Positions 1 to 57,457 of a stretch of 64,000 bases of DNA are shown here, piece after piece. Source of the stretch: Gemmatimonadota bacterium (GTDB taxonomy: Bacteria > Gemmatimonadota > Gemmatimonadetes > Gemmatimonadales > Gemmatimonadaceae); contig JAJTGR010000004.1 in assembly GCA_021299375.1 (NCBI GenBank), forward strand, positions 1 to 64,000, read 5' to 3'. Under the pieces are notes generated by a model. That model was not told the origin of the DNA and searched no databases. It worked only from the letters and a program-made list of their open reading frames with translations. The first letter of the stretch is position 1; each line of letters starts with the position of its first letter. The position numbers and the translations under genes are program-made.

Positions 1-446
1 CACGGAGGAATCGTGATGGCTCCTCGGTGGCCTCACCGTCCTCGGTGCCCTCCGTGTGAGGCTGTTTCCGAGGAACCTCGCATGGCGGAACAGCTTCCCA
101 CGGCGGGTGCTGTGGATGGTAAGGACACGAGGTATCGTGATGGCTCCTCGGTGGCCTCACCGTCCTCGGTGCCCTCCGTGTGAGGCTGTTTCCGAGGAAC
201 CTCGCATGGCGGAACAGTTTCCCACGGCGGGTGCTGTGGATGGTAAGGACACGAGGTATCGTGATGGCTCCTCGGTGGCCTCACCGTCCTCGGCGCCCTC
301 CGTGTGAGGCTGTTTCCGAGGAACCTCGCATGGCGGAACAGCTTCCCACGGCGGGTGCTGTGGATGGTGACGGCACGGAGGAATCGTGATGGCTCCTCGG
401 TGGCCTCACCGTCCTCGGTGGCCTCCGTGTGAACTGTTCCGCCATG
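1..446. repeat. 124-bp tandem repeat array with inverted ends
   Basis: About three and a half copies of a 124-bp unit run from the window edge to 15 bp before the next gene. The shared string GATGGCTCCTCGG starts at 15, 139, 263 and 388, giving periods of 124, 124 and 125. Inside each unit two related pieces (CCTCGGTGGCCTC and CCTCGGTGCCCTC) follow each other. The outermost form is an inverted repeat: CACGGAGG at 1-8 faces CCTCCGTG at 49-56, and the same at 374-381 and 422-429. Positions 432-446 (AACTGTTCCGCCATG) are the reverse complement of a segment inside each unit, for example 205-219. All frames give low-complexity peptides, so I regard the array as non-coding. It may continue left of the window. 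Confidence 0.9.
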
Positions 447-460
447 CTAGCTTCCCGGGC

Positions 461-1663
461 ATGAGCTCGGCCGAGGACCCCACCCCGCGCCTGCACACGC
501 GCCCCCCGCAGACCACGCCTGCGCACCGCAAGCAGCTGCGCCAGCTCGTGCGCGCCGGCGTCGAGAACCGCCCTGGGGTGTACCGCATGCTTGGCCCCAC
601 GGGCACGGTCATCTACGTGGGGCAGTCGCGGGTGCTGCGCACGCGGCTGCTGAGCTACTTCCGCGCCAAGGGGCGGCGCAACAAGGCCACGCGCATCCTG
701 CGGCACGCGTTCCAGATCGAGTGGGAGTACACGCACACCGAGTTCGGGGCGCTGCTGCGCGAGTTGCGGCTCATCAAGCAGCACCGCCCGCACTTCAACA
801 CCATGATGGTCATGGACGAGTGGCCGCGCGCGTACGTGGCCCTTACCGGCGGTGCGGTGCCGGGGCTGCGTGTGGTGGCCCGCTCCGACGATCCTTCCGC
901 CGTCGCCCTCTTCGGCCCCTTCCGTCGTGTGGCCCAGTTGCGCGATGCCGTACGGGCGCTGGCGGAGGCAACGGGGCTGCGTGACTGCACGCTGGAAGAT
1001 GCGGTGCGCGGCGAGGGCGCCGCGCGCGGCAGTGCGCTCTGGTTCACCGCCGATCCCGCCACGCGTCCGCGCGGAGGCACGCCGCGTTCGCGCGCGCCGG
1101 GCTGCCTGCGGCACGACGTCGGCACCTGCGCCGGCCCGTGTATCGGCGCCGGTCAGCCGACAGCCTACCGCGAGGCGGCGCACGACGTGCGCGAGTTTCT
1201 CGAGGGGCGCAGCGAGGCGCCCGTGCGCACGCTCGAGCGGGCCATGGCACACGCCGCCGAGCAGTTGGCGTTCGAACGGGCCGGTGTGCTGCGCGACCGG
1301 TTGGCCCTCGTGCGCTGGCTGCACGAGCGGGTGCAGCACTTTCACGCCAATGTCGACCGGCTCACGTTCCGGTATCACGCCATCGGCCACGCTGACCGCG
1401 AGTGGGTGTATCTCGTGCGGCGTGGCACCGTGCGCGCCGAGGTGCCCGCACCACGCACCTCCGAGGAGCAGGCCGCATTCGATGCGCTGGTTGCCCGGGT
1501 GTACGAGGGCGCCGATCCCACCGGCGCCGACATCCCCACGCACGACCTCGACGAGTTCTATCTCGTGGCCAGCTGGTTCCGTCGGCGGCCCACGGAGAAG
1601 GCGCGGACGCGCGCGATTGAGCCGGTGAGGACACGCCTGCACGGAGGGCACCGAGGCAGGTGA
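461..1663 (+). CDS. UvrC-like GIY-YIG protein without the C-terminal nuclease domain
   Basis: 400 aa. A GIY-YIG nuclease domain lies near the N-terminus (GVY at 39-41, YVG at 52-54). A UvrC-type four-cysteine iron-sulfur motif follows: an RDC motif near 171, then CLRHDVGTCAGPC with C215, C223 and C227. A UVR-like helix pair sits near 240-280. Full UvrC (about 600 aa) continues with an RNase H-like endonuclease and HhH repeats that make the 5' incision; these are absent. The protein could make a single 3' incision like Cho, or act in another DNA-processing step. The ATG at 461 is preceded by TAGCTT at 448-453 and no Shine-Dalgarno. The last codons (HGGHRGR) are encoded by an inverted copy of the upstream repeat, so the C-terminus was probably reshaped by that element. 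Confidence 0.8.
   Translation: MSSAEDPTPRLHTRPPQTTPAHRKQLRQLVRAGVENRPGVYRMLGPTGTVIYVGQSRVLRTRLLSYFRAKGRRNKATRILRHAFQIEWEYTHTEFGALLRELRLIKQHRPHFNTMMVMDEWPRAYVALTGGAVPGLRVVARSDDPSAVALFGPFRRVAQLRDAVRALAEATGLRDCTLEDAVRGEGAARGSALWFTADPATRPRGGTPRSRAPGCLRHDVGTCAGPCIGAGQPTAYREAAHDVREFLEGRSEAPVRTLERAMAHAAEQLAFERAGVLRDRLALVRWLHERVQHFHANVDRLTFRYHAIGHADREWVYLVRRGTVRAEVPAPRTSEEQAAFDALVARVYEGADPTGADIPTHDLDEFYLVASWFRRRPTEKARTRAIEPVRTRLHGGHRGR
1640..1656 (-). repeat. inverted copy of the 124-bp repeat core
   Basis: Seventeen bases (CACGGAGGGCACCGAGG) are the exact reverse complement of the repeat core at 40-56. They form the last codons of the UvrC-like gene. The gene is therefore bracketed by inverted copies of one element. 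Confidence 0.75.
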
Positions 1664-1751
1664 GTCCACGGCGCAGTACATGAGGCTGGTGCGGATGCGC
1701 GCCACTCGTGGACGGCCGCGGAACCGGTCAGCATTCGGCCGTCCCGGTCCG

Positions 1752-1817: not shown

Positions 1818-2867
1818 ATGCCCCGCTACTCCTTTGCCGGGCCCACCGCTGCCCTCGTCACGATGGCGGCGTTCGGCGTGCCCGCCGCTACGCTGACCGC
1901 CCAGGCGCGCAGCGCCGACTCCGTTGCCCTCACCGAGTGGGACGTACCGTGGGGCGCCGCCGGCCGCCCGCGCGATCCCAGCGTCGACCCGCAGGGGCGC
2001 GTGTGGTTCGTGGGGCAGGAGGGCAACTACGTCGCGCGCCTCGACCCCAGGACCGGCAACTTCGAGCGCTTCGAGATCGACCCCGGCACCAACCCGCACA
2101 CCGTGAACGTCGATCCGCAGGGCGACGCGTGGTACGCCGGCAATCGCAACGGCATGATCGGCCGCATCGACGGCAAGACCGGCAAGATCACGCGCTATCC
2201 CATGCCCGAGGCCGCAGCGAAGGATCCGCACACCATCACCTTCGATGCCAGGGGCAACCTCTGGTTCACGCTGCAGAACAGCAACATGGTCGGCTTCCTC
2301 GATCGTGCGAGCGGGCAGGTGAAGCTGGCGAGCATGCCCACCCCGCGGTCGCGGCCGTACGGCATCGTGATGGACCGGACGGGACGCCCGTGGTTCGATC
2401 TCTTCGGCACCAACAAGATCGGCACCATCGACCCGCAGAGCATGCGCGTGCGCGAGTATCCGTTGCCCGATGAGCGCGCGCGGCCGCGTCGCATCGCCCT
2501 CACCAGCGACGGCGCCGTGTGGTACGGCGACTATTCGCGCGGCTACGTCGGGCGTCTCGACCCCGTGAGCGGCACCGTGAAGGAGTGGGCGCTCCCCGGC
2601 GGTGGCACGAGCATGCCGTACGCCATGACGGTGGATGACAACGACCGCCTCTGGCTCGTGGAGACGGGACGTCAGCCCAACCGGCTCGTCGGCTTCGATC
2701 CGCGCAGCAACGCCTTCTTCGCCCAGACGGATGTCGGCCCGGTGCAGCCCAACACCATCCGGCACATGGTGTTCGACAAGAAGACGCAGAGCATCTGGTT
2801 CGGCAGCGATCGCGGCACGATCGGGCGCGCGGTGGTGCCAGCGGCGGGGAAGAAGCCGATCGGGTGA
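1818..2867 (+). CDS. Vgb-like exported beta-propeller (streptogramin B lyase family)
   Basis: 349 aa. The N-terminus is a Sec signal peptide ending near the LTAQA stretch (about residue 31). The rest is a run of about six or seven NHL/Vgb-type blades with the pattern DPQGRVWFV, DARGNLWFT, DRTGRPWFD, DNDRLWLVE. Virginiamycin B lyase opens streptogramin B by elimination, but most exported proteins of this fold in environmental bacteria have unknown substrates. The active-site histidines cannot be assigned confidently here. The gene stands alone, convergent with vapC 20 bp downstream. The ATG follows a GGAGAG ribosome site. Confidence 0.8.
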   Translation: MPRYSFAGPTAALVTMAAFGVPAATLTAQARSADSVALTEWDVPWGAAGRPRDPSVDPQGRVWFVGQEGNYVARLDPRTGNFERFEIDPGTNPHTVNVDPQGDAWYAGNRNGMIGRIDGKTGKITRYPMPEAAAKDPHTITFDARGNLWFTLQNSNMVGFLDRASGQVKLASMPTPRSRPYGIVMDRTGRPWFDLFGTNKIGTIDPQSMRVREYPLPDERARPRRIALTSDGAVWYGDYSRGYVGRLDPVSGTVKEWALPGGGTSMPYAMTVDDNDRLWLVETGRQPNRLVGFDPRSNAFFAQTDVGPVQPNTIRHMVFDKKTQSIWFGSDRGTIGRAVVPAAGKKPIG

Positions 2868-3590: not shown

Positions 3591-3839
3591 TTACGCTGCC
3601 CCGTGCGCCGGACCGGTCGGACGAATAGCGAGCAGGTCGTCGTCGGCCACCGGGCGGATATCGTCGCGATGCAGCACATGGAGTGCCTGCGTGCGTCCCG
3701 CCGCAGTGACGAACTCGACCTCGAATGCATCCGGGCTATACACCTGCACGACGGCGCCGAGGTCACCGGTGCGCAGACCAGCCTCTGGCACATCGCGTGT
3801 GAGCACGACCGTGTCGAGCTCTCGGATTGCGTTGCTCAT
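3591..3839 (-). CDS. DUF4926 family small protein
   Basis: 82 aa with the DUF4926 pattern: LDTVVLTRDVPEAGLRTGD, then GAVVQVY, then an FEVEFV strand near 40-45. These are small SH3-like barrels of unknown function, often second in a two-gene unit with DUF6883. The start overlaps the stop of the upstream gene by ATGA, so they are translated together. A toxin-antitoxin role is possible but unproven. Confidence 0.75.
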   Translation of the reverse strand: MSNAIRELDTVVLTRDVPEAGLRTGDLGAVVQVYSPDAFEVEFVTAAGRTQALHVLHRDDIRPVADDDLLAIRPTGPAHGAA

Positions 3840-4174
3840 GCGCGCGCTCCCGGCAGGGCTGTGACCAACCGGGGGACAACCTCCCCCCGCAGGATGATCC
3901 AGACGGATACGACCGCCGCTTTGCGGCCGCTCGGTCCCTCGATAATGCCCTCGACTTCGAACTTTCGTCCATACGGGCTCGGCACTTCCCGGGCTCGACC
4001 GAGGCGTCCATGCCGCTCGAGTGCGGTCCGAAGCCGGGGCCAGTCCGTCGGATGGAATCCCAGTGCCATGAAGAAACGCGCCTCGGCCTGACCCACGGGG
4101 TGTTCCGGCGAGAGCAGATAGCCTCGGAGCTTCATGGGGTCGATGGACGCCTGATCAGCATTCGGCAGTCGCAT
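3836..4174 (-). CDS. DUF6883 family protein
   Basis: 112 aa. The N-terminus (LPNADQASIDPMKLRGYLLS) followed by HPVGQAEARFFMALGF fits DUF6883, a family of unknown function regularly found beside DUF4926. It is translationally coupled to the downstream DUF4926 gene (ATGA overlap). The pair sits between a VapBC operon and a truncated chorismate mutase, so this stretch looks like an inserted accessory module. Confidence 0.75.
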   Translation of the reverse strand: MRLPNADQASIDPMKLRGYLLSPEHPVGQAEARFFMALGFHPTDWPRLRTALERHGRLGRAREVPSPYGRKFEVEGIIEGPSGRKAAVVSVWIILRGEVVPRLVTALPGARA

Positions 4175-30592: not shown

Positions 30593-30605
30593 CGGCAACG
30601 GCGAA

Positions 30606-30745
30606 CGGCGGCACCAATAACGGCGGCACCAACAACAGCGTCATGGAAACGACGTAATCGGTCATCGGAACCCCGCAGGCCCCCGCCCATCGATCACGTC
30701 GTTTTCATGACGCCGTTCTCGGTATCGCCGTTAGTGATTCCGCCG
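30606..30745. repeat. long imperfect inverted repeat between mlaD and usp
   Basis: Two 50-bp arms (30606-30655 and 30696-30745) match at 41 of 50 positions as reverse complements, with a 40-nt loop. The inner ends, ACGACGT and ACGTCGT, match perfectly. It starts 14 bp after the mlaD stop. Both arms contain 15-nt sub-units related to the adjacent tandem array, so arm and array share an origin. It could act as a bidirectional terminator. Confidence 0.8.
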
Positions 30746-30865
30746 TTAGTGACTCCGCCGGTAGCGATTCCGCCGTTGGCGATTCCGCCGGTAGCGATTC
30801 CGCCGGTAGCGATTCCGCCGTTGGCGATTGCGCCGTTGGCAATTCCGCCGGTAGCGTTGCCGCGG
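30716..30865. repeat. 15-bp tandem repeat, ten units, ending at the usp stop codon
   Basis: Ten consecutive 15-bp units, consensus GTAGCGATTCCGCCG with TTAGTGATTCCGCCG and TTGGCGATTCCGCCG variants. Unit 10 (30851-30865) ends on the base before the usp stop codon at 30866-30868. The array overlaps the second inverted-repeat arm. There are no spacers, so it is not a CRISPR. Reading frames through it give monotonous AIPPV or ESLPA peptides with no start signals, so I treat it as non-coding. Confidence 0.85.
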
Positions 30866-55581: not shown

Positions 55582-57336
55582 ATGAGCGACGATTTCAACG
55601 CGCGGTACCGCCTGCTCAAGTGCGTCGCGGTGGACGATGGCATCCGCACCCACAACGCCCAGGAGCTGGCCACCGGCCGCGTGGTGATGGTGCACCTGGC
55701 CGATGCCGCGGGACCCGACGAGGTCGATCGGTTGCGCGGAATGCTGGGACGCTTGGGTGGCGCCGACAAGAATCGGGTGCTGGAGACGGCGACCCTGCCC
55801 TCAGGCTTTGCCATCGTCACCGAATTCCTGGCTGGCATGGCGTCGTTTCCGGCGTGGCTGGGGCAGCGGGCCTCGCCGTCGACAGCGGCTGATGCGGCTG
55901 GTCCCGTGGTGCTGGGGATGCCGGAAGAGACGATCTCACCCCCGATGCCGACGCGGAGCCAGAGCGAGTCGGCGGCGCCGGTGAGTGCGCCGGTTACGGC
56001 GGCGGTTACGGCGGCGGTTACCGCGCCGACTCCACCGCCGCCGCCGGCGTCCGGAGCGTCGGAGTCTGGGGCCTTCACCTTGATGTTCGGGGCACCCGCG
56101 GTGCCGGAAGCCGCGGTGCCGGAAGCCGCGGTGCCGGAAGCCGCGGTGCCGGCACCCGTCGTAGCAGCACCCAGCGTCCCGGCACCCACCGTAGCAGCAC
56201 CCAGCGTCCCGGCACCCGCAGTGCCGGACGCCGCGTGGCGCCTCGGGGAGGTTCCGGGTGTGTCGGCGGCGTCGCTGGCCCCGGCTGCGCCACCCGTGCC
56301 TGCCCCTGGCGCCTTCACCCAGATGTTCGGGGCGCCGGCGGTGCCGACCGCGCCACCCGCCATGACGCCACCCGCCATGACGCCACCCCCCATGACGCCG
56401 GCGCCGGCAAGCGTGGCCCCGTCCGTTCCGGTCACCCCGACCGCGCCGCCGCCGGTGGCTGCGCCGGGGGCGTTCACCCAGATGTTCGGCGCCCCCAGCG
56501 TCTCGGCCGCGCCTCCAGCCGTGCCGTACGTGGCACCGGCAGCGGTCCCACCGGCGTTGCCTGCCGCCCCCGTGCTGCCGTCACCCGAGCCGCCGCGCCC
56601 CGCCGTAGGGGAGTTCACTCGCATGTTTTCGGCGCCGAGCACCGCCGCTCCGCTGCCGCAGTCGGTGCCTCCGTCGCCGGTGGTGCCGGCGGCGCCGGCC
56701 TCCCCGCCGTTCGGGGCGTCCCCCATGGGAGGGCTCTCCATGGGAGGCCTCCCCGCGAGCGGTCTCCCCACGCCGGTGACCCCCCCTTCGTGGCCGGCAT
56801 CGTCACCGCCCCCGATCGGTGCGCCATTGAGTGCCGCGGGAGCTGCCCCGTCGCCACTGTTCGGTGGCGCACCAGTGGCTGGCAGCGCGCCGGCGCCTCT
56901 CGCGGTGCCGCCGATGGCGCCCGCCCCCGCCACGCCGCCGCTTGCCCCACCGATCACGGCTGCGGCACCTGGCATGCCCGGCGGGCCGGCCATCGTGCCG
57001 CCGCCAATCTTCGCGCGCGACGCGGGCACCACGCCGCTGTCACCGATGGGCGGCGCCATGGCGCCATCCGCCTCGGCCGGCCCAAGCGACTTCACCCGCA
57101 TGATCAGCAAGGCCCCAGCCCCCGTCGTGCCCGAGCCCAAGGCCCCGGAGCCGGTGGCCTCCAGCCTCTCCCCCGCGGCCGCCAAGCGGACCATCCCCCT
57201 GGGCCTGATCCTCGTGATCAACGCCGTCCTGATCGCGGCCGTGCTGCTCATCGTACTCGTCCTGCGTCGCCCCACCCCGACCGTACCCGCCGCGCCCGCC
57301 GTGCCCACCGCGCCCGCCACATCCCCCGCCCCCTAG
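55582..57336 (+). CDS. pseudokinase-like N-terminus, proline-rich protein with five FTxM motifs and a C-terminal membrane anchor
   Basis: 584 aa, no named family recognised. Residues 1-95 read like the N-lobe of a Ser/Thr kinase without its catalytic Lys: FNARYRLLKCVAVDDG, ATGRVVMVHLAD, SGFAIVTEFL. No C-lobe follows. The next 430 residues are Pro/Ala/Val-rich and presumably unfolded. They carry a repeated motif around FT[L/Q/R]MFxAP with Phe at 165, 245, 298 and 345, and a variant FTRMI at 504. A helix of about 25 residues near 540 and a short tail end the protein. The DNA has its own tandem repeats (15 bp at 56101-56145, 30 bp at 56161-56220). It lies between the two tssK genes, so a type VI role is likely. 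Confidence 0.7.
   Translation: MSDDFNARYRLLKCVAVDDGIRTHNAQELATGRVVMVHLADAAGPDEVDRLRGMLGRLGGADKNRVLETATLPSGFAIVTEFLAGMASFPAWLGQRASPSTAADAAGPVVLGMPEETISPPMPTRSQSESAAPVSAPVTAAVTAAVTAPTPPPPPASGASESGAFTLMFGAPAVPEAAVPEAAVPEAAVPAPVVAAPSVPAPTVAAPSVPAPAVPDAAWRLGEVPGVSAASLAPAAPPVPAPGAFTQMFGAPAVPTAPPAMTPPAMTPPPMTPAPASVAPSVPVTPTAPPPVAAPGAFTQMFGAPSVSAAPPAVPYVAPAAVPPALPAAPVLPSPEPPRPAVGEFTRMFSAPSTAAPLPQSVPPSPVVPAAPASPPFGASPMGGLSMGGLPASGLPTPVTPPSWPASSPPPIGAPLSAAGAAPSPLFGGAPVAGSAPAPLAVPPMAPAPATPPLAPPITAAAPGMPGGPAIVPPPIFARDAGTTPLSPMGGAMAPSASAGPSDFTRMISKAPAPVVPEPKAPEPVASSLSPAAAKRTIPLGLILVINAVLIAAVLLIVLVLRRPTPTVPAAPAVPTAPATSPAP
56101..56220 (+). repeat. in-gene 15-bp and 30-bp tandem repeats
   Basis: GTGCCGGAAGCCGCG occurs three times in a row (56101-56145, encoding VPEAA). 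A 30-bp unit encoding VAAPSVPAPT/A then occurs twice (56161-56220). Both keep the reading frame and vary only the length of the linker. Confidence 0.85.
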
Positions 57337-57457
57337 CTCGCGCCGTCTAGCTCGCGCCGTTTAGCCCGCGCCGTCCAGCTCGCGCCGTTTAGCTCGCGCC
57401 GTCTAGCTCGCGCCGTTTAGCCCGCGCCGTCCAGCCCGCGCCGTCCAGCTCGCGCCC
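57334..57457. repeat. 14-bp tandem repeat filling a stop-to-stop gap
   Basis: Almost nine units of TAGCTCGCGCCGTC, with TAGCCCGCGCCGTC and CAGCTCGCGCCGTT variants. Unit 1 begins with the TAG stop codon of the FTxM protein (57334-57336). The last partial unit (57446-57457) runs into the stop codon of tssK2 (57457-57459). The whole convergent intergenic gap is therefore repeat. Confidence 0.9.

Follow-up and report, generated by a model that had tools for sequence, protein, structure and literature searches.

Copies of a dispersed REPIN-like hairpin repeat beside and within a UvrC-like gene of a Gemmatimonadota bacterium, and a probable GxxExxY nuclease partner

The stretch of DNA analysed here (the window, 64,000 nucleotides) is the start of contig C36 in a Gemmatimonadota assembly of 4.48 Mb and 116 contigs. 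It opens with a tandem array, followed by a gene for a UvrC-like nuclease, whose very end is overlapped by a further copy of part of the repeat, and then by a gene for a Vgb-lyase-like protein:

1-432, no strand: tandem array, 3.4 copies of a 124-bp unit (Tandem Repeats Finder, direct repeats, half-unit scan and contig overlap)
23-58, plus strand: half-unit, CTCCGTG strand, 34/36 to the consensus
97-132, minus strand: degenerate half-unit, inverted, 25/36
147-182, plus strand: half-unit, 34/36
221-256, minus strand: degenerate half-unit, inverted, 25/36
271-306, plus strand: half-unit, 33/36
345-380, minus strand: degenerate half-unit, inverted, 28/36
396-431, plus strand: half-unit, the final one in the array, 33/36
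333-443, no strand: a whole doublet, which folds into one hairpin with a DNA folding energy of -36.2 kcal/mol and z -6.3
432-446, no strand: array edge AACTGTTCCGCCATG, the outer arm of a doublet and inverse of the inter-doublet spacer
461-1663, plus strand: UvrC-like nuclease gene with GIY-YIG and UVR domains (PF01541, E 3.9e-7; PF02151, E 2.7e-5)
1638-1673, minus strand: lone inverted half-unit over the gene end, encoding HGGHRGR and the TGA stop, 29/36 to the consensus
1818-2867, plus strand: Vgb-lyase-like gene, the syntenic downstream neighbour in some relatives (L057, L067, L071)

Tandem Repeats Finder gives a period of 124 for positions 5-432, with 3.4 copies and 96% matches; the copies occupy 5-128, 129-252 and 253-376, followed by a partial copy to 432. 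The half-unit scan resolves each 124-bp unit into a complete inverted doublet (two inverted half-units) plus a spacer, the CTCCGTG-strand half-units at 23, 147, 271 and 396 alternating along the array with degenerate ones on the minus strand at 97, 221 and 345. A preliminary description of this DNA had reported inverted pieces within the units and an inverted segment at the array edge, and both are borne out, the segment at 432-446 being the reverse complement of the spacer CATGGCGGAACAGTT. Only eight half-units in the whole window score at least 25/36, all of them at 23-431 or 1638-1673. The best score elsewhere is 21 between 447 and 1637 and 23 after 1674, and 60 Markov-1 sequences simulated for the 62-kb remainder reach no more than 25, so that the half-unit at 1638-1673, with its 29/36, is not to be put down to chance. 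No Rfam family was found in the window.

The array begins at base 1 of C36 and is cut by the contig start. Contig C20 starts with the opposite end of an array of this kind, shares an exact 30-bp overlap with C36 and also has a photolyase-like gene; the overlap and this gene content together place the array between the photolyase-like gene and the UvrC-like gene.

The UvrC-like gene has matches in all 61 genomes searched. The half-unit over its end shows 90% identity over 30 nt to the repeat in the genome search; an exact 17-mer, CACGGAGGGCACCGAGG, taken from the other strand of the array, lies at 1640-1656, confirming that the core of the repeat reappears inverted as the last codons of the gene, and the inverted match around it extends to 37 nt at 84%. 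The stop codon has its counterpart in the repeat as well (CGGTGAG in the half-unit consensus, AGGTGAG at the gene). Among the 28 readable ortholog C-termini from the 29 relatives' loci that were read (L074 being left out), none ends in HGGHRGR, and none of the 28 loci (1.4-4.2 kb each, with flanks of at most 1.5 kb) holds a half-unit at the threshold used; the orthologs diverge after RRRPxEKxRTR into variable short tails. Comparison of these ends indicates that a half-unit has replaced or extended the variable tail of the UvrC-like gene, supplying its stop. The earlier proposal that the repeat replaced the natural 3' end stands insofar as the C-terminus is repeat-derived, but the recoded part is a variable tail and not a conserved end. 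The gene had also been described as bracketed by the repeat, which fits the array upstream, but on the other side there is only a single degenerate half-unit that overlaps the gene end.

Relatives without the repeat keep the order photolyase-like, uvrC-like, vgb, and in L055, L057 and L058 the gap between the first two genes is 45-104 bp, as measured between alignment edges, with no repeats. Aligning the gene end downstream to L057 gave no clean insertion boundary. An early idea, that a response regulator gene is the usual downstream neighbour of uvrC and that the order in the window results from rearrangement, was dropped, as other relatives also have vgb downstream. In four relatives' loci (L047, L048, L050 and L051) the photolyase-to-uvrC spacer is 410-550 bp long, with another large palindromic sequence (around CCCCGTTCGCTGCTCTCTTCGGGGGTGGCC).

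The 124-bp unit is dispersed in its own genome, with 48 matches on 11 contigs; a doublet query gives 66 matches, some on further contigs, and an exact 11-mer search gives 18, versus 1 in the control. Outside the arrays of C20/C36 and of contig C69, all ten doublets are ordered CACGGAG then CTCCGTG, and the five doublets that were folded have z scores of -5 to -15. The copies are mostly intergenic by simple ORF scoring, several sites lying between convergent genes, and one pair is inside a coding linker of a DnaE-like gene. The arms within a doublet are no more alike than arms across doublets (permutation p 0.12 and 0.18), a negative result for covariation that lends no support to copying of the whole doublet in one piece. 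What the preliminary description had seen as a mobile or hairpin-forming element is indeed hairpin-forming and dispersed, but consists of separate copies of a genome-wide family, not of one element around the gene.

In the 60 relatives searched, matches occur only in G005 (1), G010 (4), G015 (1) and G058 (6); since the family is dispersed here and nearly absent from relatives, the copies are recent. At one site, on contig C41, a spacer between convergent genes measures 132 bp and holds a doublet, versus 19 bp in the relative G014. In five other relatives (G005, G015, G009, G006 and G017; loci L185-L189) the same spacer holds unrelated long inverted repeats built from other short tandem units, so that the spacer is refilled by differing families and lineages have hairpin families of their own, which are quickly replaced. 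In the DnaE-like linker on contig C62 (L039, 1707-1921), in-frame half-units flank a conserved segment on both sides. G010, G005 and G015 have TEGTEGT or VPSVPS-like stretches at this linker, and because these are possible decayed remnants we rejected it as a clean empty site; the linker looks like a place that such repeats have hit repeatedly or long ago.

Further copies lie on C69, where seven half-units one way, a GxxExxY gene and fourteen opposed half-units follow one another. The gene is a clear member of the TIGR04256/PF13366 family (GxxExxY / PDDEXK_3), with profile matches over the cut-off (PF13366, E 4.6e-35; TIGR04256, E 1.9e-36), and its protein retains the PD-(D/E)XK residues E30, D70, E80 and K82. 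The genome has four GxxExxY genes, and the other three lack both this kind of repeat and any long inverted repeat in their vicinity. The Y1 transposase domain characteristic of RAYTs (PF01797) is absent from the genome, which is 96% complete. A predicted model of the GxxExxY homologue L079, from the cultured Draconibacterium aestuarii (mean pLDDT 91.8), weakly resembles 4ic1 (SSO0001), a Cas4 protein, followed by Bax1, lambda exonuclease and a Holliday junction resolvase, with a best E of 4e-3; a search of the PDB by sequence with the GxxExxY alignment gave no match. Our literature search found no function for the GxxExxY family, which spans several phyla, and, judging by titles, nothing on repeats under PF13366, PDDEXK_3, TIGR04256 or GxxExxY. 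In L090, the repeats that flank a GxxExxY gene (3614-4099) appear to encode its own N- and C-terminal ends.

The arrangement recurs at GxxExxY genes elsewhere. At 29 genus and family loci, 30 TC[CTG]GTG pairs lie within 400 bp of the gene and none beyond 700 bp; at 30 loci from named genomes, which by their record titles belong to Bacteroidota, Acidobacteria and Proteobacteria, the figures are 17 and 0. A more general form of the unit is CRCVRAG, recurring at intervals of 9-10 nt (CACGGAG, CACGAAG, CGCAGAG, CGCGAAG). Both motifs were defined after viewing L042, L125-L153 and L154-L183, so that only 40 new loci form an independent test: with the fixed CRCVRAG motif, 8 of these 40 are positive within 400 bp, comprising 5 of 20 from other phyla (a level reached by none of 200 permuted units) and 3 of 20 from the genus and family (reached by 3 of 200). 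The other-phyla set has 16 motif matches in 15.7 kb near the gene versus 4 in 29.9 kb far from it, and the reversed unit, used as a control, has no match near the gene in any of the 40 new loci. A motif-free measure, inverted similarity between the two flanks, picks out 7 of 32 and 11 of 30 GxxExxY loci, versus 2 of 29 uvrC loci.

When all loci are pooled, tandem CRCVRAG or TCNGTG lies within 400 bp at 47 of 101 GxxExxY loci versus 1 of 40 Y1_Tnp loci, many of the latter drawn from the same genomes; the 101 leave out L045 (whose gene was not located by tblastn), one duplicate, and L076-L096, which largely overlap L154-L183. Most of the nearest matches have opposite orientations on the two sides of the gene (on the left 16 plus and 8 minus, on the right 6 plus and 17 minus). 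Neither motif is present at the remaining 54 of the 101, some of which have other hairpins while in others none was seen. Twenty further loci outside the 101, chosen from repeat-rich genomes, include 12 positives. To judge from these counts, the association of GxxExxY genes with such repeats is general, across several phyla; the titles and abstract openings that our literature search returned contain no report of it.

The same association can be looked at across whole genomes. The pattern of three tandem CRCVRAG units was tallied across 80 genomes, G003 and G027, the least complete, being left out both here and in the Y1_Tnp tally. In the 59 genomes of the window's order, at least 8 matches are found in 12 of 32 with PF13366 versus none of 27 without, a correlation that is confounded by phylogeny, as the genomes lacking the gene come mostly from other families and only 5 of them are from the window's own. 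All 12 repeat-rich genomes among these 59 relatives thus have PF13366 and 8 of the 12 are without Y1_Tnp, which shows no such relation to repeat-richness (4 of 21 versus 8 of 38). The window's own genome scores 0 with the three-unit pattern because its units differ. G058 has repeats and neither PF13366 nor Y1_Tnp, and is a counterexample to strict dependence.

One of the genomes counted, G029, is complete in one contig, with 107 pattern matches and no Y1_Tnp (PF01797). Five of its six GxxExxY genes adjoin a hairpin or repeat visible by eye, and these belong to differing sequence families. In 400 kb of this genome (20 stretches, 11 of them picked for known pattern matches), each dispersed site resembles the flanks of just a single GxxExxY paralog: about 9 sites for L325, 4 for L324, 2 for L131, 2-3 for L238, two weak ones for L326 and none for L244. 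Among 300 random 260-bp control segments, 20 match another site and 3 match two or more.

A pairing of repeat families with particular paralogs resembles that of REPINs with RAYTs. REPINs, as set out by Bertels and Rainey 2011 (PMC3116915), are inverted REP doublets that form hairpins and are extragenic and dispersed, with tandem arrays, and their repeat groups match specific partner genes, the RAYTs, near the repeats. Inverted hairpin doublets, dispersal in many copies, mainly extragenic, tandem arrays and groups matched to nearby partner genes are all found here too. The differences are that the partner is a PD-(D/E)XK GxxExxY protein rather than a Y1 HUH transposase, and that the half-units are about 45 bp long and made of 9-nt subunits; a RAYT flanked by the repeat is a REPIN feature, whereas the present genome is without PF01797. 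The GTAG/CGTC REPs, as described by Di Nocera et al. 2013 (PMC3733652), are intergenic, mostly between convergent or co-directional genes, give genes their stop codons, and occur inside DNA-repair genes (excinuclease ABC proteins, DnaE2, photoreactivating enzyme); for CGTC REPs without a RAYT, that paper gives the agent as not known. The present family shares the intergenic sites and the stop codon given to a gene, and its copies lie at the end of a UvrC-like gene, beside a photolyase-like gene and inside the linker of a DnaE-like gene. A terminal GTAG tag is seen at none of the 63 half-units here, and CGTC or GACG is near an end in 7 of 63; unlike in CGTC REPs, CGTC lies inside the unit, mostly with no terminal tag. 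Having neither RAYT nor GTAG tag, the family is REPIN-like but fails two defining features. We know of no agent so far for REP-like repeats that lack a RAYT. MITEs, short non-autonomous elements with inverted ends, offer a further comparison: the doublets could have arisen from a longer element that carries the gene (arm, GxxExxY gene, arm), but the arms here, unlike theirs, are internally 9-nt periodic.

We consider it probable that the array and the half-unit at the gene end belong to a dispersed REPIN-like hairpin family whose partner is a GxxExxY nuclease. Two half-units of about 45 bp, each made of 9-nt subunits and set in fixed polarity (CACGGAG...CTCCGTG), form a hairpin of about 100 nt; doublets or half-units can expand into arrays, and one copy has come to lie over the 3' end of the UvrC-like gene, where it provides the last codons and the stop. 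The putative partner, in a genome with no RAYT, would be the small PD-(D/E)XK nuclease encoded on C69 between opposed arrays of the same half-unit, which would act on the extruded hairpin and thereby spread or maintain the repeats. More widely, gene positions and motifs show the association, and GxxExxY nucleases are probably the partners, and perhaps the mobilisers, of REPIN-like repeats; we infer the mobilisation. The fuller form of this idea is more tentative, and we would not put it beyond a fair suspicion: GxxExxY proteins may serve a second class of REPIN-like repeats, independent of RAYTs, as its dedicated partners, each paralog cutting or copying its own family's hairpin, with the arm-gene-arm locus as the autonomous parent. 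Against the GxxExxY reading we count the three unflanked paralogs here, the 54 motif-free loci, G058, the phylogenetic confounding of the genome-wide correlation, the arms that are no more alike within doublets, the absence of any observed movement of the repeats and the weakness of the fold match. If true, the reading would explain how repeats become part of coding regions, the UvrC-like gene with its altered tail being an example. A widespread nuclease family would gain a concrete candidate role, and the tandem 9-nt hairpin units beside its genes would serve as a visible signature for finding matched nuclease-repeat pairs in many genomes.

Other explanations account for part of these observations. 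It is unlikely, though it deserves serious weight, that REP-like hairpins persist because they serve as 3'-end, terminator or mRNA-stability elements and are distributed by some unknown agent, with GxxExxY genes merely sharing the same flexible intergenic places. The sites between convergent genes would suit such a function, as would the unrelated inverted repeats in the relatives' C41 spacer and the repeats of G058, which has no GxxExxY gene. Shared location alone, however, sits badly with the near absence of the motifs at Y1_Tnp genes, which are also small and mobile-type and in many cases come from the same genomes, with the far flanks of GxxExxY genes, nearly empty of the motif, and with the paralog-matched families of G029.

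Somewhat less likely still is a stationary GxxExxY nuclease with a role in defence or regulation; the hairpins beside its gene would then be its operators or substrates, and the dispersed copies by-products or further targets, not cargo. A fold nearest to Cas4-like and exonuclease-like proteins and the position of the repeats right at the gene ends are consistent with it, but the dispersed, recent repeats of the present genome need a spreading mechanism, and different paralogs go with different dispersed families. That this is a standard REPIN family moved by a RAYT is very improbable: it shares with REPs, so far as the two sources above describe them, the plan of the doublet, the tandem arrays, the intergenic location and the DNA-repair genes hit, but with no PF01797 in either the window's genome (96% complete) or the complete and repeat-rich G029 we rejected a RAYT as the agent in both, and the GTAG tag is missing from every half-unit. 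A single mobile element bracketing the UvrC-like gene and moving with it, suggested by an array on one side and an inverted half-unit on the other, can scarcely be credited, being disfavoured by the gene order kept in repeat-free relatives and by the repeat's many other sites without a UvrC-like gene.

The window contains two further repeats. At 30604-30863 there is a second inverted array, in which about nine 15-bp CGCCGTTAGCGATTC units are opposed to AACGGCGGCACCAA units, possibly another hairpin repeat family, and at 57333-57456 there are nearly nine tandem copies of the 14-bp unit CTAGCTCGCGCCGT.
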